This document shows positions 10,572 to 59,961 of a DNA stretch of 59,961 bases, piece by piece (the stretch's first letter is position 1; every line of letters starts with the position of its first letter). The notes beneath the pieces are model-generated. The model searched no databases, was not told the DNA's origin, and saw only the letters and a program-made list of their open reading frames with translations. The stretch spans positions 1 to 59,961 of the forward strand of contig JAGAOS010000052.1 of the NCBI GenBank assembly GCA_017623575.1, given 5' to 3'. A program made the position numbers and the translations under genes. This stretch comes from Clostridia bacterium. Its GTDB lineage: Bacteria; Bacillota; Clostridia; Oscillospirales; Acutalibacteraceae.

Positions 10572-12359
10572 ATGATAAAACAATATGACGATAATAAATT
10601 GGCAAGTTTTGGAATTGAACAGAAAAAGTTTTTATTTTGCCAGGTTTGGAAAGAACTTACAGATAAGAGGACATTTGATTCTTATCAATATAAATTGTTT
10701 AATGTAGTAGATGGAACTAAAGAATTGATCCATAATATTGAGCGTTTCCTTGAAAATTTGGTAACAACAACACATTCTATTGATGCAGTTACAGGTGAGT
10801 TAATAAAGGAAATTAAAAGAGATTATGTTTTGCTTAACAAATTTAATGGTTTAAAAAACAGTATGTTGAGCACGCTAGGATCCAAATATGTAACTAATTC
10901 TAATTATAAAGCTTACTTGTATAAAATGAAATTCTATCTTCATGAATTAGAAATAGTTTATGATGATACACTAATTGATTGTTTGTGTGATTCAATTGAC
11001 ACTGCCGATTCGGATAATATTATTAAATTAACTTCGATATTTATCAGTCGATGTGTTAATCAAGGATGGTCTGCTAGAGCATTATACAATAAAATAGATT
11101 CAAATAGCGATGATATAAAAAGTTTTTTAAAGAAGATATACAATTATCAAGAGCAAAACTATGCGGTTGTTTTTCCATTCAGACTTAGTATATTACCGCC
11201 AACTGGAAAAACAAAGGATGAAAGTCGAGCATATGTAATCGAACAAATGAAAAAGTTTAATATCTTAGTTTACGCAAAAGAAAAACTTGCTGAAGAATTT
11301 GAAAACATTGACACCAATTTGCTAAACAACAATGAATATATGGTGGTTCGGTGTGTAGCAAAAGATATTTTTACAGCTTCCCATAATGCTATTACAGAAA
11401 TTTCTAATACATTGAATATGTTTAGCTTTTTTTCAGTAATAGAACCGTGGAACATTTCAAATCAAACTTGGATAGTATTTAATTGCGACCATCCATACAC
11501 TAAAAATTTAACACCAAATGATATATACGAAACATATGAATATTTGGATAGTTCGTCCAATGTATATTCTAGAGTTGAAAAAATCACAAATTCAAATTCC
11601 AGTGAAGTTGAATTTGTTCAGAAATTATTGTCATCATTTAATTACGCAACTATGAGCAAGTTATCAGTATCCGTCGAAGAAAAATTCATTAATATGTGGA
11701 TTGCAATAGAGTCGTTATCTCGCCTAGATTCCCACGATAATATTATTGGGAATATTATAATCAACGTATCTTCTGCTTGCTCAATACGCTACATATATAA
11801 GGAAATCAGAAATTTTATTGAAGACTGTTTCCGGTGTGAAATATCTCTCGATTTTGATGGAGTTGTCATCAATCGTAATGAACCCAACAAGGAATTATTG
11901 GTACAAAATATTCTAAATATATTTCGCAACAATACACTTTATGCAGAATTACATAATCGTTGTTCAACATGCGCTCTGTTAAAGCATAGGTGTGAAAAGT
12001 TTCATGTTTTGCTAAATGACGAAAAACAGCTTATTAATCAAATCAAAAGCCACCATCAAACAATCAGATGGCATCTTGATAGATTATATAGGATACGTAA
12101 TGAAATAGCGCACTCTGCCAATAAACAGTTTATTTCTGTAGTTAGCTATACGGAACATTTATATGATTATCTCGCAACATACATATCAGAACTTGCAAGA
12201 TTTTCCATTGAAAAGGGGATAACAAATATGGGTGAATTATCTACTGCCATTATAGATAATTACAATCAATTCCTTTTCCTTGCGGACGAAAAGAAATTGA
12301 CTCCTAAAAGGGATTATTTAAAAAAATTATGGACCGTTGGCATAATGGACTATATATAA
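10572..12359 (+). CDS. HEPN-domain protein, ApeA-like putative defence RNase
   Basis: A 595-residue soluble protein. The C-terminal part contains WIAIESLSRL (about residues 377-386) and, near residues 504-516, RIRNEIAHSA. Its R509-x4-H514 pair is the catalytic RxxxxH motif of HEPN ribonucleases, in the sequence style of the ApeA-like HEPN family. A CxxC-containing segment (CSTCALLKHRC, about residue 465) precedes it. The N-terminal 350 residues match nothing I recognise and may sense or bind a partner. ApeA-type proteins act in abortive infection against phage by cutting host RNA; that role is inferred here. The start codon has an AAGAGG ribosome binding site. The gene stands alone between a small-RNA locus and a terminator. 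It is A/T-rich relative to lysS, as expected for an acquired gene. Confidence 0.72.
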   Translation: MIKQYDDNKLASFGIEQKKFLFCQVWKELTDKRTFDSYQYKLFNVVDGTKELIHNIERFLENLVTTTHSIDAVTGELIKEIKRDYVLLNKFNGLKNSMLSTLGSKYVTNSNYKAYLYKMKFYLHELEIVYDDTLIDCLCDSIDTADSDNIIKLTSIFISRCVNQGWSARALYNKIDSNSDDIKSFLKKIYNYQEQNYAVVFPFRLSILPPTGKTKDESRAYVIEQMKKFNILVYAKEKLAEEFENIDTNLLNNNEYMVVRCVAKDIFTASHNAITEISNTLNMFSFFSVIEPWNISNQTWIVFNCDHPYTKNLTPNDIYETYEYLDSSSNVYSRVEKITNSNSSEVEFVQKLLSSFNYATMSKLSVSVEEKFINMWIAIESLSRLDSHDNIIGNIIINVSSACSIRYIYKEIRNFIEDCFRCEISLDFDGVVINRNEPNKELLVQNILNIFRNNTLYAELHNRCSTCALLKHRCEKFHVLLNDEKQLINQIKSHHQTIRWHLDRLYRIRNEIAHSANKQFISVVSYTEHLYDYLATYISELARFSIEKGITNMGELSTAIIDNYNQFLFLADEKKLTPKRDYLKKLWTVGIMDYI

Positions 12360-12386
12360 CAAATAAACACTTATGCGTTTAAATAG

Positions 12387-12424
12387 AAAAGCCTGACACT
12401 TTTTAAGTGAAGTGTCAGGCTTTT
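12387..12424. terminator. Bidirectional terminator between the HEPN and XRE genes
   Basis: AAAAGCCTGACACT (12387-12400) and AGTGTCAGGCTTTT (12411-12424) form a perfect 14-bp stem with A/T tracts on both sides, placed between convergent genes. Confidence 0.9.
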
Positions 12425-12428
12425 CGTA

Positions 12429-12746
12429 TTATTTCTGTTCTTTTGTCAGACGGCGGATATGACCGATAATCAGCATCATATCGTCATCGTTGAGTTTTCT
12501 GAGTTCATCGATAGCGCTTTGAAGCAATGCCGGGTTTTCAATAGAATCGTCAAAGAATTGGCTAGGCGTAATACCAAAGTAATTACATATCTCAAGAAAT
12601 TCTGCCATAGGCGGCAGTGACTTGCCGGAGGATATGTTATAGATATAACTTCTGCTATGACCAAGATCATAACTCATTTGATATTCTGAAACACCCTTCT
12701 TGAGTCGCAATTCTGTAATTCTATTTCTAATAAAAGTTCCGTCCAT
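12429..12746 (-). CDS. XRE-family helix-turn-helix regulator
   Basis: A 105-residue protein with one Cro/CI-type HTH (RNRITELRLKKGVSEYQMS, then LGHSRSYIYNISSGKSLPP, about residues 6-45). The segment MAEFLEICNYFGITPSQFF follows, as in small phage-type repressors. A C-terminal helix (SAIDELRKLNDDDMMLIIGHI) is probably for dimerisation. The ATG at 12746 is chosen because the GAGAGGTG ribosome binding site is 8 bases upstream of it and overlaps the alternative GTG at 12755. It is divergent from the SLOG gene at 12941, and an inverted repeat sits on its own promoter, so autorepression is likely. Confidence 0.9.
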   Translation of the reverse strand: MDGTFIRNRITELRLKKGVSEYQMSYDLGHSRSYIYNISSGKSLPPMAEFLEICNYFGITPSQFFDDSIENPALLQSAIDELRKLNDDDMMLIIGHIRRLTKEQK

Positions 12747-12755
12747 ATTGTTCAC

Positions 12756-12794
12756 ACCTCTCTATGTTTATATTTTAGTCTATTGAGAGGTCAA
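12756..12794 (-). promoter_or_regulatory. Promoter of the XRE gene with flanking inverted repeat
   Basis: On the minus strand TTGACC (12794-12789) and TATAAA (12772-12767) are 16 bases apart. ACCTCTC (12756-12762) and GAGAGGT (12785-12791) form an inverted repeat that brackets the -10 and includes the ribosome binding site. It is a good operator candidate for the XRE protein. Confidence 0.6.
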
Positions 12795-12823
12795 ACTATT
12801 CCAAAAATATATGTTGAATTATC

Positions 12824-12852
12824 TTGTTTAATAGCGAATAATATGTTATAAT
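12824..12852 (+). promoter_or_regulatory. Promoter of the SLOG gene at 12941
   Basis: TTGTTT (12824-12829) and an extended -10, TGtTATAAT (12844-12852), with 17 bases between hexamers. The leader is about 80 bases and holds a near-palindrome, ATAATTT-CG-AAAATTAT, at 12888-12904. Confidence 0.6.
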
Positions 12853-12940
12853 CAAATATAATATGTTTGCATATCGGTATTATTGCAATAATTTCGAAAA
12901 TTATATCATTAAAACATAAATACTTGGAGTTTGATATAAC

Positions 12941-13420
12941 GTGTTAGAGATTTTTACTGTCGCGTTTTTCGGTCACAGATATATAGGCAATCCGTTTAAG
13001 GTGGAAGAACTGCTCGAAGAGCAAATAAGAAAGCTTATTGACGAAAAAGAATATGTGGATTTTCTGGTGGGACGTAACGGTGAGTTCGACCAGTGCGTTT
13101 CGTCAACAGTGCTTCGTGTACGAAAAAATTATAGGGATGATAATAGCTCACTTGTTTTGATGCTGCCGTATCCAACCGCAGAATATATTAATAACCAAAA
13201 TTATTTTGAAGATTATTATAGTGACATCGAAATTTCGTATGCAGCTTCAAAAGCACACCCGAAAGCAGCTATACAGATCCGTAATCGAGAGATGGTAGAT
13301 AGAGCTGATTTGGTTATTTGCTATATTGAGCATAACGAGGGCGGTGCCTATAAAACTGTAAAATATGCTTCAGAGCAGAATAAGCCCATAATCAACCTTG
13401 CTAATTGTGTTGACTATTAA
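12941..13420 (+). CDS. SLOG-superfamily protein (DUF1273-like)
   Basis: A 159-residue Rossmann-like protein. The first strand and turn VAFFGHRYIG carries the FGHR motif of the DUF1273/YpsA branch of SLOG proteins. EYVDFLVGRNGEFDQ holds the nucleotide-binding Gly region, and NREMVDRADLVICYIE ... GGAYKTVKYA is the late SLOG signature. SLOG proteins bind or process nucleotide-derived ligands and are thought to act as sensors in conflict systems; no substrate is known here. The start is a GTG, and the best ribosome binding site (GGAG at 12926-12929) is 11 bases away, so the exact start is uncertain. It is divergent from an XRE gene and 14 bases upstream of a small membrane protein. Confidence 0.8.
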   Translation: MLEIFTVAFFGHRYIGNPFKVEELLEEQIRKLIDEKEYVDFLVGRNGEFDQCVSSTVLRVRKNYRDDNSSLVLMLPYPTAEYINNQNYFEDYYSDIEISYAASKAHPKAAIQIRNREMVDRADLVICYIEHNEGGAYKTVKYASEQNKPIINLANCVDY

Positions 13421-13434
13421 AAAGGAGAAGAAAA

Positions 13435-13608
13435 ATGAAAGTTTTTAAGTTTATAGTAATGGGCATCTTGATTTTAATTACAATTCAAACCGCATATTTT
13501 GCATTATTATATAAAGCCAATACAGCAACCGGAGCTTTCCTTATATGCTTTGGGATAACACTATTTGTCGCTTGTGATGGCGGTCTTAAATCAAGAGTTA
13601 GAAAATAA
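13435..13608 (+). CDS. Small two-helix membrane protein (57 aa)
   Basis: The ATG at 13435 follows a strong AAAGGAGAAG ribosome binding site. The peptide is MKVFKFIVMGILILITIQ and onward, with two hydrophobic helices at about residues 4-26 and 33-48 and a basic end (LKSRVRK). It lies 14 bases after the SLOG gene, so the two are probably co-transcribed. Function unknown. The pairing of a soluble SLOG sensor with a tiny membrane protein recalls effector modules in defence systems, which is inference only. Confidence 0.7.
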   Translation: MKVFKFIVMGILILITIQTAYFALLYKANTATGAFLICFGITLFVACDGGLKSRVRK

Positions 13609-13653
13609 TTCGCAAGAAGTTGCGAGTTTTGTTGTTGATATTATCAAATCAGA

Positions 13654-13682
13654 TTGACATTTCGACAAATTTGGTATATAAT
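13654..13682 (+). promoter_or_regulatory. Promoter of the small XRE gene
   Basis: A perfect TTGACA (13654-13659) and TATAAT (13677-13682) are spaced 17 bases apart. GATATTAT (13637-13644) and ATAATATC (13678-13685) are inverted copies around the promoter and may be operator half-sites. Confidence 0.82.
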
Positions 13683-13713
13683 ATCAAATAAGCTCGTATA
13701 GGAGGTTCCTAGT

Positions 13714-13929
13714 ATGCGAATTAGCTATAAAAAGCTTTGGATATTGCTGATTGAAAAAGATATATCGCCTGCTACTTTGCGAAAAGATTTGAATATTGCA
13801 ACGGGTACTATGACAAAGCTTCGCAAGAATGAGGAAGTTGCACTTTCAGTAATGCTAAGAATTTGCGAATATCTTGATTGTAATATCGGCGATATATGCG
13901 ATGCTGTAAAAATAGACAGTATTTTATAA
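13714..13929 (+). CDS. Small XRE/Cro-type transcriptional regulator
   Basis: A 71-residue protein that is almost entirely one HTH domain. MRISYKKLWILLIEKDIS leads to LRKDLNIATGTMTKLRKNE, the recognition region, and then MLRICEYLDCNIGDICD. This is the YozG-like family of very short Cro/CI proteins common in Clostridia. It has a strong promoter of its own and a TAGGAGGTTCC ribosome binding site. It heads the run of genes to 16,752, so it may control the zinc-ribbon/SPFH genes or itself. Confidence 0.9.
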   Translation: MRISYKKLWILLIEKDISPATLRKDLNIATGTMTKLRKNEEVALSVMLRICEYLDCNIGDICDAVKIDSIL

Positions 13930-13953
13930 AAATCCAGATCAAAGGAGACTATT

Positions 13954-14199
13954 ATGGCTTGGAATATTATACGGAATTCTGAACCTGCTTCGCTCAATGA
14001 GGATTATTTCGGCACTTGTCCTGAATCAGGTAAAAAAGCGAAGGTAACTGTTCATTACATTGGCAGTAAATGGTGCAAAACAGATCTTCAAAAAACATAT
14101 CGCAAATCAGGTATGACTTGTAGCCTGTTGTTAGATGAGGATAAAGCAAGATTTTCGCCGTGTATGGAGAATTGTCCTCTTGTACCCGATAAGTATTAA
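13954..14199 (+). CDS. Small cysteine-containing hypothetical protein (81 aa)
   Basis: The protein begins MAWNIIRNSEPASLNEDY and has five cysteines, in GTCPESG, KWCKTD, MTCSLL, SPCMENC. The pattern suggests metal binding but does not match a zinc finger I can name. There is no signal peptide or membrane segment. It has a clear AAAGGAGAC ribosome binding site, and is co-directional with the XRE gene 24 bases upstream and the zinc-ribbon gene 21 bases downstream. Function unknown. Confidence 0.72.
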   Translation: MAWNIIRNSEPASLNEDYFGTCPESGKKAKVTVHYIGSKWCKTDLQKTYRKSGMTCSLLLDEDKARFSPCMENCPLVPDKY

Positions 14200-14220
14200 G
14201 ATAAAAATGGAGGCTAGGAC

Positions 14221-15540
14221 ATGACTGATTTGAAACTCGAGGTCGGCGAAGGCATTTTGTTGCAGACTAACGATGTAGGCCTATATGATGGGAATAATGA
14301 AACGGACATTGATGAACTTTATCTCACAAACAAAAACATTATCTATGTTCACGAAAAATCAATGGGAATGTTTAAATCGGAGACGGTTGTTGATAAAATA
14401 CCGCTATCTTCAATAAGCGTTGTTAATGGTATAGTTCAAGTAGATGTTGTAGATGACGATGACTATGGAAGAACAATGCAAATAATTTATACTTCTGGAA
14501 AACGCGAACTGTTTGAACTGAATGTTTCACCCAAGAAAGAATACCCCAAGTGGGAAACAGCAATTTCAGAGGCAGTTTTGAAATATGGAGCTATGCCTCA
14601 CGAAGCTAAAAGAACTGAGCCAACTGTATCAAATGATAATGAAGGAGCAGTTCCGAATGGTGCAAGTTTCGATCAAAAGAGGTTTTGTCAGTATTGTGGT
14701 ACAAAGTTAGATCCTGGTGCTCGCTTTTGCAAGAACTGTGGCAAACCACTTGAACAAGGTGGTGCAACTGGCGGTGGATACACAGTTCCACAACCAGAAG
14801 AAACCTTTTCGCATAAGCAACATACCGAAAGAAAAACAGTGTACGAAGGTCAATTGCATAAGTGCCCCAATTGTGGTGAACTTTTAGATTCTTTCCGTTC
14901 ACACTGTCCTACTTGTAATTATGAAATAAGAGATGCTCGTTCTTCAAGTGCTGTTAGAGAGTTGGCACAAAAGCTCGAAAGAATTGAAGCTGAACGCATG
15001 GCGCCAATTGAGGAAAAGAAATCTCTTATGAAGATGGTTTTTGGCAAGGACTTCAAGGAAGAAAACGAAGTAGAAGAGGCTCAGGAACGTTTTGATGAAC
15101 ACAAACGCCAACAAAAGGCGAACCTGATTATAAATTTCTCAGTACCCAACACACGAGAAGATATTTTGGAGTTTATGATTTTGGCATCATCAAACATTGA
15201 TGTGAAAAAAGGTATTGATGACGACGTAACAAAAGCTTGGATATCCAAACTCGAACAGGTGTATGAGAAGGCAAAACTGTTGCTTGGAAACAAACCCGCC
15301 TTTGCCGAAATTAAATATATCTATGATAGAAAGAAAGCTCAGATTAAAAACCGAAAATTTAAAGGTTTGGCTATTGCGTGTTTCATTGTGGGCGGATATG
15401 CACTGCTTTTTGGTGGTATTATGTTTCCAGCCGAAATTACAGCTGGAGGAGTTATCGGAATTTTTATAGGTATAGCACTTTTGCTTTTGGGAATTAAATT
15501 TATCTCTACATACAATAGAAACAATAAGTTGAATTCATAA
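14221..15540 (+). CDS. Membrane protein with PH-like domain and two zinc ribbons
   Basis: A 439-residue protein. The N-terminal 110 residues look like a bacterial PH-like domain (ELYLTNKNIIYVHEK, then LFELN). The first zinc ribbon is FCQYCGTKLDPGARFCKNCG (about residues 156-175). The second, CPNCGELL with CPTCNYEI, lies at about residues 215-240. A long charged helical region follows, and two membrane segments near the C-terminus (about residues 382-432). Such proteins commonly accompany YdjI-type SPFH proteins, as here, and the pair probably works at the membrane. No enzymatic residues are seen. Confidence 0.78.
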   Translation: MTDLKLEVGEGILLQTNDVGLYDGNNETDIDELYLTNKNIIYVHEKSMGMFKSETVVDKIPLSSISVVNGIVQVDVVDDDDYGRTMQIIYTSGKRELFELNVSPKKEYPKWETAISEAVLKYGAMPHEAKRTEPTVSNDNEGAVPNGASFDQKRFCQYCGTKLDPGARFCKNCGKPLEQGGATGGGYTVPQPEETFSHKQHTERKTVYEGQLHKCPNCGELLDSFRSHCPTCNYEIRDARSSSAVRELAQKLERIEAERMAPIEEKKSLMKMVFGKDFKEENEVEEAQERFDEHKRQQKANLIINFSVPNTREDILEFMILASSNIDVKKGIDDDVTKAWISKLEQVYEKAKLLLGNKPAFAEIKYIYDRKKAQIKNRKFKGLAIACFIVGGYALLFGGIMFPAEITAGGVIGIFIGIALLLLGIKFISTYNRNNKLNS

Positions 15541-15552
15541 GGAGGAGTATAT

Positions 15553-16752
15553 ATGGCATTATTCGATAAAAACAAAAGAACCGGTGGATTTATGGACGAA
15601 ATTCGCTGTGATGAACCATCATATTTAATTTGGAAGTGGCATCCTTCCGGTTCTCAGTTAGGTGAAAACAACCGTGAAAATTCAATTCGCTGGGGATCTT
15701 CTCTTCGTGTAAAAGATGGTGAAGTTGCTGTATTTGTTTACAAACAGAAAGACGGCACTTTACAGGACTTTATTGTTGGTCCATATGATGAGATTATTAA
15801 GACTGCAAACTTCCCAATTCTCGCAAGCATTGTGGGACTTGCATATGAAGGTGGAACACCGTTTCAAGCAGAGGTCTACTTTATCAACCTTGCTCAGATA
15901 ATTCAAACCAAGTTTGCTGTGCCCTTCTTTGATGTATATGATCCGAGATTTGCAGACTTTGGTGTTCCTGTTGCTGTTCGTGGAACTATTAGCTTCAAAA
16001 TTTCTGATTATAGAGGCTTTATTAAATTACATAGATTAAATTCGTTTGATTTAGTGGATTTCCAAACTCAAATACGAGATGCAGTATGCCGATATGTAAA
16101 AGATGTAGTAGCTAATGCGCCGGCACAACACGATATTCCACTCGTTCAAATTGAAACCAAGACGTCTCAAATCAATGATGTTATTGAGTTTGATCTTGGT
16201 GAGAGATTAAGAGAAACCTTTGGTGTTGAAATTTCTGGCGTGGATATTGGCGCTATTGAACTTGATAAGTCAAGTGACGGATATAATCAGTTAATGGCTG
16301 TGACTAAGGATATTGCCGCAGCTAAAGTTAAAGCTGAAACCGAAGATTATATTGAAAGAATGCGCATTCAACGCGAAGAGGGTCAATACGCTCAACACAA
16401 AGCAACACAATCTGCAAATATCGGTGCTTTCCAAGTTGAAAAACAGGCTGAAGTCGGCATAGCTGGTGCTGAAGCTCTCGGTCAAATGGGTGCAAATGGT
16501 GCAGGTTCTGTTGATCTCGGTGGCGGCGGAACTGGTTTCAATCCTGCAGCAATGATGGCAGGAATGGCTGTTGGCGGTGCCGTTGGCCAAAACATTGCCG
16601 GTTCAATGAATAATATGATGTCTGGCATGAATCAGCCGATGTCAGGATCAACACCACCTCCAATTCCGGTAGTGGCATATCACGTTGCAGTCAATGGACA
16701 GTCTAATCAGCAATATACGCAATTTTATTTAACATTTCTTCTTCAATTCTAA
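15553..16752 (+). CDS. SPFH/Band 7 protein of the YdjI type, C-terminal domain truncated
   Basis: A 399-residue protein. The N-terminal region (LIWKWHPSGSQLGENN, then LRVKDGEVAVFVYKQKDG) and the SPFH core up to about residue 230 match YdjI-type 'virion core protein (lumpy skin disease virus)-like' SPFH proteins. A coiled, Ala/Glu-rich segment (IAAAKVKAETEDYIERMR) and a Gly/Met-rich linker follow. Relatives end in a GYF_2-like domain that begins AYHVAVNGQS. Here the match stops right after AVNGQS (about residue 383), and the last 16 residues are unrelated and rich in Q, F and L. The reading frame runs antisense through a fragment of another gene, so the natural C-terminus has been lost by rearrangement at about 16,704. 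The protein may still assemble at the membrane. Confidence 0.85.
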   Translation: MALFDKNKRTGGFMDEIRCDEPSYLIWKWHPSGSQLGENNRENSIRWGSSLRVKDGEVAVFVYKQKDGTLQDFIVGPYDEIIKTANFPILASIVGLAYEGGTPFQAEVYFINLAQIIQTKFAVPFFDVYDPRFADFGVPVAVRGTISFKISDYRGFIKLHRLNSFDLVDFQTQIRDAVCRYVKDVVANAPAQHDIPLVQIETKTSQINDVIEFDLGERLRETFGVEISGVDIGAIELDKSSDGYNQLMAVTKDIAAAKVKAETEDYIERMRIQREEGQYAQHKATQSANIGAFQVEKQAEVGIAGAEALGQMGANGAGSVDLGGGGTGFNPAAMMAGMAVGGAVGQNIAGSMNNMMSGMNQPMSGSTPPPIPVVAYHVAVNGQSNQQYTQFYLTFLLQF

Positions 16753-16774
16753 TTGAAACACTTTTTATAGCCAT
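16703..16774 (-). pseudogene. N-terminal fragment of an RHH (Arc/RelB-like) DNA-binding gene
   Basis: On the minus strand an ATG at 16774, with a GAGGTG ribosome binding site 5 bases upstream, opens MAIKSVSIRIEEEMLNKIAY, then IAD and a stop. This is the first half of a ribbon-helix-helix antitoxin-like protein: beta strand, then helix A. Helix B and the tail are missing. The stop lies exactly where the truncated SPFH gene loses its own homology, so both genes were cut by the same event. Confidence 0.72.
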
Positions 16775-16841
16775 AAATTCACCTCAAAATAAATGTATTG
16801 TATATTTATTTTAGATATATTATGTGTTATAATGTTGTGAA

Positions 16842-16860
16842 TAGATATACAGTATATCTA
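16842..16860. promoter_or_regulatory. 19-bp palindrome upstream of the SLOG pseudogene
   Basis: TAGATATAC-A-GTATATCTA is a perfect inverted repeat. It is placed 9 bases after an extended -10 (TGtTATAAT, 16825-16833) and 23 bases before the ATG at 16884. It looks like an operator for a dimeric regulator, perhaps the RHH protein now broken on the other side. Confidence 0.55.
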
Positions 16861-16883
16861 AAATATCTGAGGAGAAGAAATAT

Positions 16884-17373
16884 ATGTACGAAAATACCTG
16901 CTTGCTTTATCGGTCACAGAACGATAAACGAAACCGAAGATTTAAAATCGAAACTTAATGAAATTATCGAAAAGCTAATTGTGGACGAAAATGTTGATAC
17001 ATTCCTTTTTGGGAGCAAAAGCCGATTTAATAGTTTATGCCTTGAACTTGTAACCGAGTTAAAAGAAAAATACCCGCACATAAAACGAATCTATGTACGG
17101 GCGGAGTATCCATATATCAGTGAGCGTTATAAGAACTATTTGCTGAAAAACTACGAGGACACTTATTACCCCGAAAAGATAATAAACTCAGGCCGAGCCG
17201 CTTATGTGGAACGTAACTATGAGATGATCGATAACAGTCGCTTTTGCATCGTTTACTACGATGAAACAAACGCCCCAACAACCAGAAAGAGTGGAACAAT
17301 GGTTGCATTTGATTATGCAATAAAAAAACAAAAGTGTATCATAATGTTTTCGGCAGAAGAACATAATGTGTAG
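16884..17373 (+). pseudogene. SLOG-family gene (DUF1273) with an early frameshift
   Basis: A good ribosome binding site, GAGGAGAAG, precedes the ATG at 16884, which reads MYENTC. The family continuation CFIGHRTI is found in a different frame from about 16,901 onward. Removing one T from CTTG at 16901-16904 would restore a continuous MYENTCCFIGHR start. The rest of the protein is intact (FLFGSKSRFNSL, RVYVRAEYPY-like segment, NYEMIDNSRFCIVYYD, TRKSGT, the usual IIMFSAEEHNV end). An in-frame start far upstream at 16798 lacks support. It could be a sequencing error, but the neighbouring RHH and SPFH genes are also broken. Confidence 0.75.
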
Positions 17374-59091: not shown

Positions 59092-59460
59092 TTATGTATT
59101 TATTAGTTTAATTTTAATTGGTTTATTATAAAATTTTGAATATTCTATCATTGATTTTGTTCCTTTACTTTTATTATTCCAAAAACATATAACATAATCG
59201 CAATTTTTCGCCATTTCTTCATTTCTTTTAGGACCCGCAGCTTTACCGTATTTGTCCCATTCAGCTTTAAAATATTCAACCTTAAAACCATTTTCATTAG
59301 CATACACTTCACCTAAAAAATCTGCACCTTTTGCACCACCGCAAAGTATAATAATATCATTGTATTTTCGTATGTTTGATAAACAAAAATCTATATATTC
59401 TTTTGCTTCTTTATAATTATTATAATTTCTGCATCCAGCAATAACAACTCGTTTTATCAT
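59092..59460 (-). CDS. SLOG-family protein (DUF2493/YspA-like)
   Basis: 122 residues from the ATG at 59460, with AAGGGGTG 6 bases upstream; the GTG at 59469 overlaps that site. KRVVIAGCRNYNNYKEAKEY, IILCGGAKGADFLGEVYANE, and then AAGPKRNEEMAKNCDYVICF are the successive SLOG signatures of the DUF2493 branch. The CGGAKGAD loop is the predicted nucleotide-binding site. It probably binds a nucleotide-derived ligand; the function is unknown. It is divergent from an XRE gene, with operator repeats between them. Confidence 0.88.
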   Translation of the reverse strand: MIKRVVIAGCRNYNNYKEAKEYIDFCLSNIRKYNDIIILCGGAKGADFLGEVYANENGFKVEYFKAEWDKYGKAAGPKRNEEMAKNCDYVICFWNNKSKGTKSMIEYSKFYNKPIKIKLINT

Positions 59461-59490
59461 TTTTCTCACCCCTTGTATAAATATATCAAT

Positions 59491-59519
59491 ATTTTAACCT
59501 ATTTCAGGTTAAAAATCAA
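59491..59519 (-). promoter_or_regulatory. Promoter of the DUF2493 SLOG gene
   Basis: On the minus strand TTGATT (59519-59514) and TAAAAT (59496-59491) are 17 bases apart. The first operator repeat fills the spacer. Confidence 0.75.
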
Positions 59520-59535
59520 TAACCTTATTCAGATT
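59496..59535. promoter_or_regulatory. Paired operator repeats for the XRE regulator
   Basis: AACCTATTTCAGGTT (59496-59510) is a palindrome with five-base arms. A second copy, AACCTTATTCAGATT (59521-59535), starts 25 bases later. The first sits in the spacer of the SLOG promoter, and the second overlaps the -35 region of the XRE promoter, so one repressor could control both genes. Confidence 0.7.
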
Positions 59536-59548
59536 AAATTATTATGGT

Positions 59549-59554
59549 TATAAT
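59549..59554 (+). promoter_or_regulatory. -10 element of the XRE gene
   Basis: A perfect TATAAT at 59549-59554, with a poor -35 (TTATTC at 59525-59530, 18-base spacing) inside the second operator. Confidence 0.55.
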
Positions 59555-59577
59555 AGATTTAGTCGGAGGAGTATTGA

Positions 59578-59799
59578 ATGTTTAAAAGAGTGCGTGATCT
59601 GAGGGAGGATCTTGATCTTAACCAAACAGATGTAGCTAAAATGTTAGGTATGTCGCAAACCGGTTATTCAAAGTATGAAACCGGTGAGAACGATATTCCA
59701 ACCTCTGTGCTTATTAAACTTGCGGAGTTTTATAGTGTTAGTATTGATTATCTTTTGGGTATTACCGATTGCAAACAACGCTATCCTTCAAATAAGTAG
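59578..59799 (+). CDS. XRE-family helix-turn-helix regulator
   Basis: A 73-residue Cro/CI-type protein. It has RVRDLREDLDLNQTDVAKML, then MSQTGYSKYETGENDIPTSV with the recognition helix, and ends FYSVSIDYLLGITD. It is the single-domain repressor type with the SIDYLLG tail common in Firmicutes. A CGGAGGAG ribosome binding site precedes it. It is divergent from a SLOG gene and probably represses it and itself through the repeats at 59,496-59,535. Confidence 0.93.
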   Translation: MFKRVRDLREDLDLNQTDVAKMLGMSQTGYSKYETGENDIPTSVLIKLAEFYSVSIDYLLGITDCKQRYPSNK

Positions 59800-59826: not shown

Positions 59827-59961
59827 TGAACCCCAAAGTTTAGACAAAATTAAATATTAAATTGTTAGTGAATGAGTTCGGTATTGCACCGGACTCATTC
59901 CTTTTAGTTTTAAGGAAATTCTTTCGTTGTTGTAGTAATGAATGTATTTCTTTAATTCATC
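59827..59961 (-). mobile_element. Right end of an IS3-family insertion sequence (incomplete)
   Basis: TGAACCCCAAAGTTTAGACA at 59827-59846 resembles the terminal inverted repeats of IS3/IS150-type elements. It is followed on the minus strand by the last codons of an IS3 transposase. The other end lies beyond the window, so target duplication cannot be checked. Confidence 0.8.
59857..59961 (-). CDS. IS3-family transposase OrfB, C-terminal end only
   Basis: Only the last 34 residues are in the window. The YIHYYNNERISLKLKGMSP and PVQYR motifs are the standard end of the IS150/IS3 integrase-type transposase, after the third catalytic residue. The frame is open to the window edge and stops 11 bases inside the inverted repeat. 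Confidence 0.88.
   Translation of the reverse strand, partial: DELKKYIHYYNNERISLKLKGMSPVQYRTHSLTI

Follow-up and report, generated by a model that had tools for sequence, protein, structure and literature searches.

SLOG genes and their divergent, exchangeable regulators in Clostridia and in phage contigs

Phage morons are cargo genes of prophages that are regulated independently, phage immunity regions exchange repressors and operators between relatives, and the controller (C) proteins are small regulators of restriction-modification genes. Here we analyse a 59,961-nucleotide stretch of Clostridia bacterium DNA (assembly GCA_017623575.1, contig JAGAOS010000052.1; hereafter the window), in which three SLOG genes each face a gene, or the remnant of a gene, for a small DNA-binding protein. 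The window is contig C82 of a genome of 2.04 Mb that is 70% complete. The SLOG superfamily includes proteins of conflict systems, as described for YpsA (PMC6459960), viral SLOGs (PMC9503650) and the SLOG of Thoeris ThsA (PMC11204291). These genomes commonly carry stand-alone SLOG genes, which have so far lacked an explanation. We found no description of the divergent module in the open-licence PubMed Central literature; the 2015 SLOG survey (doi 10.1093/nar/gkv1267), outside that scope, may mention related gene pairs. The three divergent pairs listed in the initial annotation are all present, at 12429-13420, 16703-17373 and 59092-59799 (modules 1 to 3, Table 1). Regulator swapping and the related modules in phages, described below, go beyond what the window sequence alone could show.

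Pairing of SLOG genes with divergent regulators

SLOG genes of the window's own genome were searched with PF06908, PF10686 and our alignments A1, A2 and A7. Each of the nine genes identified has a DNA-binding gene opposite it, of the XRE type in seven cases, AsnC in one and an RHH fragment in one. One further A1 match (eight were counted) may be a tenth SLOG or one of the two PF10686 genes. Seven of the genome's 28 HTH_3 matches are SLOG partners. Two SLOG copies (L006 and L003) look decayed; one is split over two frames and one is without an in-frame start where it is expected.

Across 120 genomes of the same family, PF06908 matched in 62 and PF10686 in 42. The underlying rows were 114 for PF06908, minus one second gene piece and one contig-end fragment, and 62 for PF10686, with nine weak ones left out. 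A divergent XRE, RHH or AsnC gene lay within 300 bp at 106 of the 166 SLOG places. The partners were 74 XRE, 27 RHH and 5 AsnC genes, mostly 50-155 bp apart, and other orientations came to eight instances (same-direction, seven). By comparison, the rate was 5/601 for other genes of the same loci and 2/135 for genes in 20 random regions, the control genes being of 100 amino acids or more and not limited to SLOG size. The regulator models were built on the family loci themselves, and reversed decoys gave no matches. The suggestion that divergent pairing would exceed chance across genomes was therefore borne out. By branch (names coined here, assigned by a start-motif rule), the pairing was 37/39 for FGHR, 17/19 for IAGCR, 17/29 for GSR, 19/39 for TGHR, 10/27 for GYRP and 6/13 for unsorted genes. 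GYRP-kind or near-GYRP longer YpsA genes face an AsnC/Lrp gene in five genomes (L001, L018, L034, L066 and L073), which is a separate recurring pairing.

With the models fixed beforehand, loci of the FGHR subbranch A3 were examined in named genomes. Among the best 80 of 146, 76 were paired (53 XRE and 23 RHH). Eleven of the 80 overlap the set used for building the regulator models, and 65/69 were paired after their removal. At the class level, A1 loci (own locus excluded) were paired in 21/29 cases and, in 18 further rows hand-picked down the list, in 11/18. On the Monoglobus pectinilyticus plasmid NZ_OY725739.1, the SLOG WP_320690925.1 faces the HTH protein WP_320690926.1. The best named A3 relatives are metagenome-assembled genomes of Oscillospiraceae or Clostridia, many labelled ruminant gut. 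A class draw found relatives in 77/245 genomes at E 1e-5 and a phylum-wide draw in 10/348 at E 1e-20, with five of these in other classes, indicating that the FGHR branch lies mostly in the class of the window. We conclude that the divergent layout is real and general.

Small XRE genes also face non-SLOG genes at about 70-110 bp in the own genome (L610, L617, L619 and L620). Their partners are a DUF6809 protein, a Cys-rich protein, a protein read as a histidine phosphatase and an orphan. The divergent small-regulator layout may be wider than SLOGs.

Exchange of regulator, promoter and operator as one cassette

Regulator type does not follow SLOG ancestry. On a tree of 74 A3 SLOGs, which excludes four unpaired loci and two with short SLOGs, XRE and RHH changed 17 times, compared with 18.3 (14-21) in 300 label shuffles. 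The probability that two SLOGs share a regulator class was about 0.6 in nearly every identity bin, which is the random expectation, and XRE and RHH alternate before SLOGs that are up to 90% identical. Strict co-evolution of SLOG and regulator is ruled out by the tree comparison.

The exchange also shows in the DNA. Among 261 A3 pairs at 75% SLOG identity, 249 were sortable (183 with different and 66 with the same regulator); they are drawn from 80 loci and non-independent, and SLOG starts were set by rule. In the different-regulator pairs (SLOG identity at least 75%), DNA homology starts at the SLOG start codon, with a median of +6 and 97% within -20 to +25. In the same-regulator pairs, it reaches -304 or further. 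Two swaps could be followed in place. L246 (RHH) and L261/L268 (XRE) have both flanks in common at 85-93% identity, and the replaced stretch runs from just past the regulator's stop to the third SLOG codon. L292 (XRE) and L314 (RHH) share 4.4 kb at 92% rightwards from the fifth SLOG codon of L292 and, on the left, 78 bp (97% identity) up to the regulator's stop; beyond this, the homology of L314 is broken by about 3.4 kb. This stretch (about 225-3607 of L314) lies between two left-flank pieces that adjoin in L292, and both pieces match about 34 bp of L292, as expected from an insertion with a short duplication. The regulator gene is exchanged together with its promoter and operator as a single cassette, bounded by the SLOG start codon, and unrelated cassettes have taken its place many times.

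A putative operator in the shared region is conserved together with the regulator. One RHH type is represented by 31 modules, of which four appear twice across our sets; in the 30 that were aligned, the shared region is conserved. This cassette has an extended -10 (TGTGnTATAAT) followed by GATATACnGTATATC and stands before YpsA-like SLOGs and two YAcAr SLOGs. The same layout is found in module 2 of the window and in phage contigs, and the palindrome of module 2, GATATACAGTATATC, is kept in RHH cassettes before both kinds of SLOG and in the phage contigs. One HTH type is accompanied by the palindrome GGGGATATAATCCCC (GGGGAT-ATA-ATCCCC) before four SLOG branches. Another has a 34-38 bp palindrome common to L065 and L040, whose SLOGs belong to two different families. 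When the promoter cores of 182 modules were compared, pairs alike only in the regulator had a median similarity of 31 (230 pairs), versus 18 for pairs alike only in the SLOG (1985 pairs) and 16 for shuffled ones.

The operators were also searched in 200 genomes, with SLOG identity at the sites judged by eye. The RHH pattern gave eight sites, each with a SLOG on one side and an RHH gene, in the window a fragment of one, on the other; six were known beforehand and two were new. The 22 GGGGATATAATCCCC sites comprised 17 beside an intact HTH gene, one beside a broken one and four without an HTH gene, and 12 of the 17 front a SLOG (four known beforehand, eight new). The reversed patterns gave no sites in these genomes. 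Inverted repeats had been annotated in each of the three gaps of the window. Those of pairs 2 and 3 (both with 9-bp arms) exceed shuffles at P 0.028 and P 0.016, respectively, whereas that of pair 1 does not, so the annotation was only partly right on this point. Palindromes at P<=0.05 occur in 31% of 120 sampled modules versus 5% expected, a sixfold excess.

The modules of the window and their relatives in chromosomes and phages

Table 1. Features of the three SLOG modules in the window.
Feature	Position	Strand	Remark
Module 1 left boundary, terminator-like hairpin, 17 pairs	12386..12425		pattern search
Module 1 regulator, XRE/HTH_19, 108 aa	12429..12755	-	start GTG 12755 or ATG 12746
Module 1 shared promoter region	12756..12940		without a significant palindrome of its own
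Module 1 SLOG, 159 aa, FGHR branch	12941..13420	+	PHROG 289 and tree
Hydrophobic small ORF (open reading frame), 57 aa, directly after module 1 SLOG	13435..13608	+	membership in module uncertain
Terminator-like hairpin ending the 57-aa ORF	13607..13628		pattern search
Module 2 regulator remnant, first 23 codons of an Arc-like RHH gene	16703..16774	-	cut off within SPFH gene 3' end
Module 2 extended -10 of SLOG promoter, TGTGTTATAAT	16823..16833	+	conserved with RHH cassette
Module 2 candidate operator palindrome, GATATACAGTATATC	16844..16858		conserved in RHH cassettes
Module 2 SLOG, YpsA family (PF06908 E 1.3e-8), broken	16884..17373	+	profile match
Module 3 SLOG, PF10686 (E 3e-12), IAGCR branch	59092..59469	-	122 aa from ATG 59460
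Module 3 SLOG promoter-like site, TTGATT-17 nt-TAAAAT	59491..59519	-	9/12 matches
Module 3 palindrome, TTTTAACCT-ATTTC-AGGTTAAAA	59492..59514		overlies SLOG promoter-like site
Module 3 regulator, XRE/HTH_3, 73 aa	59578..59799	+	faces SLOG

The SLOGs of modules 2 and 3 belong to the superfamily by matches above the Pfam cut-offs, and that of module 1 by phrog_289 and its tree position. The Pfam match of the latter is weak and below the cut-off (cpYpsA, E 0.027). It matches PHROG 289 (labelled GTP-binding domain) at E 2e-9, a profile that also matches the module 3 SLOG and one phage GSR SLOG, and FastTree places it within the FGHR branch. Module 1 is flanked on both sides by terminator-like hairpins, and the region 12300-13700 holds four terminator-like sites versus 0.7 expected. 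Directly beside it, a 595-residue ORF (10572-12359) matches the PADLOC defence model ApeA at E 2.1e-12. On the other side, 13714-13929 encodes a small HTH_26 protein related to the VanU regulator model (E 2.4e-21, below the model's cut-off), with a perfect TTGACA-17-TATAAT promoter-like site before it and an 81-residue orphan after it.

In module 2, the expected ATG of the SLOG at 16884 is out of frame with the remainder, as had been annotated, and the open frame is 16798-17373. The Arc match comes from a relative. The stretch 14221-16752 carries a zinc-ribbon protein gene and then an SPFH/Band 7 gene. The RHH fragment overlaps the 3' end of the latter, and the two may have been brought together by a rearrangement. 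Beside module 3, the frame 59857-59961 reads ...YYNNERISLKLKGMSPVQYR..., which resembles, by its motif, the end of an IS3-type transposase.

Modules are present both in phage contigs and between ordinary chromosomal genes. Distinct two-sided contexts surround 77 of the 80 A3 loci, and nine adjoin a gene read as lysyl-tRNA synthetase. In the own genome, a module lies between genes read as groEL and HPr. Two of seven congeners (L477 and L478; groEL 89% identical) have groEL and HPr without the module, and the other five have no HPr gene beside groEL. Gain or loss of the module is thus seen at one site. Neighbour genes in the sample belong mostly to housekeeping families (the family listing covers 25 of 62 neighbour families).

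Co-occurrence with defence genes had been put forward as a check and was not clearly enriched in this small sample, though the ApeA-like gene adjoins the first pair. The comparison covered 90 of 121 neighbour ORFs (22 loci) and 90 of 128 ORFs in 20 random regions. Generic matches (mad2/mad3/mad8) appeared in both sets; the neighbours had one IIG enzyme and one AbiEii, and the control had single AbiLi, GajA, AriA and PbeA matches.

Viral relatives were examined as the best 80 of 111 for GSR and the best 80 of 516 for IAGCR. Among the GSR SLOGs in IMG/VR with at least 57% identity, a divergent regulator is present in 42/53 (41 RHH), a cut chosen after seeing the gap between 57% and 51%. The RHH protein itself was found in 30 phage contigs, about 22 of them with the gene facing a GSR SLOG and some being near-duplicates. 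The context, assembled from representative proteins of several contigs, comprises a ParB-like methyltransferase, a C5 methylase, the RHH/SLOG pair, an amidoligase, a gamma-glutamyl cyclotransferase and a terminase. Ruminococcus phage NatCom_28274 from human faeces has this context in part, with the SLOG XTK83977.1 facing XTK83979.1. In L490, L495 and perhaps L504, the phage RHH faces another small protein (MKAYFIS-like) in place of a SLOG. The A3 subbranch has one relative among 42 pattern matches in IMG/VR versus 146 among 209 in genomes, collections that differ in size.

Interpretation and comparison with known systems

We consider each of these units to be probably a self-contained, moron-like module in which the promoter of one SLOG cargo gene is held off by its own tiny private repressor. 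An XRE or Arc-like RHH regulator would bind palindromic operators in the shared region of about 100 bp. Judged from conservation and position, the bound regulator would cover both the SLOG promoter and its own, keeping the SLOG low and regulating itself. As our likeliest guess, phage infection or stress may release the SLOG by inactivating its repressor. Once free of it, the SLOG would most likely bind or cleave a signal of the NAD, ADP-ribose or nucleotide type in a conflict involving host, phage or rival element, as its superfamily suggests; for viral SLOGs, PMC9503650 proposes that they bind or process NAD/ADP-ribose-type signals. Overproduction of YpsA is lethal in Bacillus subtilis according to PMC7376506, which gives a motive for repression within the family. 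A head-to-head regulator and DNA switch that are repeatedly exchanged for unrelated ones at the start of the SLOG gene suggest that the SLOGs have to stay off until a signal releases them. Binding, repression, autoregulation and induction are all inferred. In the initial annotation, the SLOG was a sensor or effector held off by its own repressor. The part of this that is supported is a recurring module whose SLOG has a promoter region in common with a small regulator of its own; pairing far beyond chance and regulator-specific palindromes at the SLOG promoter speak for it.

Several observations weigh against this interpretation. The inverted repeat of pair 1 (7-bp arms) is not above shuffles (P 0.32), most of the 120 sampled modules are without a significant palindrome, and promoter-like sites of the window occur about as often as in shuffles (6 versus 5.1 at module 3). 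Three branches, TGHR, GYRP and GSR, are often unpaired, as are 8/29 and 7/18 of the class-level A1 loci. Module neighbourhoods resemble housekeeping regions and not defence islands. Of the 17 GGGGATATAATCCCC sites with an intact HTH gene, five front something other than a SLOG: three have small proteins that contain Cys (two of them near-identical), one has a protein of 78 residues, and the last has no clear ORF, so this cassette is not dedicated to SLOGs. A divergent regulator was found in 0/27 distant GSR relatives in IMG/VR and in 0/80 IAGCR relatives there. A general rule that phage SLOGs are without the layout, drawn from the latter count, was discarded, being true only of the IAGCR phage relatives. 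No significant avoidance of like regulators within a genome was detected, with 10 within-genome regulator pairs of at least 30% identity versus 11.4 expected (Fisher P 0.35-1.0 at six thresholds); SLOGs within one genome are more alike than expected (46 versus 27.8 pairs). Activation in place of repression is compatible with the sequence and has to be allowed for. Repression is favoured by where the palindromes lie, at the SLOG promoter.

The regulator exchange also bears on what the small protein does. With two unrelated DNA-binding folds serving the same SLOG, the simplest role for the regulator is to bind DNA and nothing more. This lowers two explanations that need contact between the partners. 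One is a toxin-antitoxin pair, a kind of unit raised as a possibility in the initial annotation, in which the small protein would cancel the toxicity of the SLOG through direct contact and would also repress the promoter. The lethality of YpsA overproduction would suit it, as would regulators that are small with weak matches to antitoxin models, and modules that are patchy, multi-copy and sometimes decayed. Yet XRE and RHH replace each other without phylogenetic signal before nearly identical SLOGs, so the contact would need rebuilding each time, and we regard such a pair as quite improbable. The two type II features looked for were both absent: partners are not co-inherited (17 changes versus 18.3 shuffled, 74 SLOGs), and the genes form no single co-directional operon (106/166 divergent, seven same-direction). 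The other is a split sensor, in which a nucleotide-bound SLOG acts on its neighbour as an anti-repressor or co-repressor in a two-protein, ligand-responsive switch. The regulators are too short for a ligand domain, SLOGs are nucleotide binders, and SLOG-HTH fusions in some phages are interpreted as sensor-controlled regulators in PMC9503650. Free exchange of regulator folds makes a specific interface unlikely, and on balance the switch seems unlikely to us.

The SLOGs might instead be ordinary phage host-takeover genes, their chromosomal copies being decaying prophage leftovers without a present role. This would fit the RHH-GSR modules in phage contigs near DNA methyltransferase, amidoligase and terminase genes and the broken copies in the own genome. 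We think it unlikely, given the scarcity of the A3 subbranch in IMG/VR relative to genomes, the fact that most listed matches are without an internal stop, and the mainly housekeeping neighbours sampled. That any short gene here simply tends to face an HTH gene, as some other small genes of the own genome do, is largely refuted as a full explanation and has hardly any probability left, given the control rates (for genes of at least 100 residues) and the absence of the layout from the IAGCR phage relatives.

Returning to the private repressor, the fixed layout and freely exchanged regulators suggest that these SLOGs must be tightly controlled. The modules offer ready-made candidate operators for reporters, as well as natural strain pairs with the same cargo behind different locks. 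More tentatively, and with less than even confidence, interchangeable repressor-promoter plugs may circulate in gut Clostridia and their phages and dock at the start codon of small genes involved in conflict, SLOGs in particular. Antagonists would sense or disable particular repressors, so that regulators would come under diversifying selection with cargo and site constant. Each cell would then hold several nucleotide-signal effectors, each behind a different private lock.

Compared with C proteins, the XRE regulators of the modules are likewise small and have weak matches to PADLOC control-protein models (E 1e-4 to 5e-3), but the controlled gene is a SLOG, and the two-gene chromosomal modules have no methylase or nuclease gene. 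The SLOGs share their superfamily with those of conflict systems, the A1 profile matching YpsA 2nx2 at E 1.7e-5; ShosA, a PADLOC model that the module 1 SLOG matches weakly (E 0.0025), is a further comparison. Unlike conflict-system SLOGs, those of the modules stand alone, with no effector domain or partner enzyme seen and with the regulator as the constant companion. Like phage morons, the modules are single cargo genes with their own control region inserted between unrelated genes; related modules occur in phage contigs, and module 1 has terminator-like hairpins on both sides. Unlike morons, they carry their own divergent regulator and operator, exchanged wholesale; the modules in phage contigs are of the GSR branch, and no prophage setting was shown for those of the window. 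As in phage immunity regions, the regulator gene and operators swap as a unit in surroundings that stay homologous, but here the folds change class, from XRE to RHH, and the controlled gene is a lone SLOG and not a lysis programme. The modules document the exchange of a whole regulator-promoter cassette at a start codon, between two unrelated DNA-binding folds, outside a classical phage immunity region.

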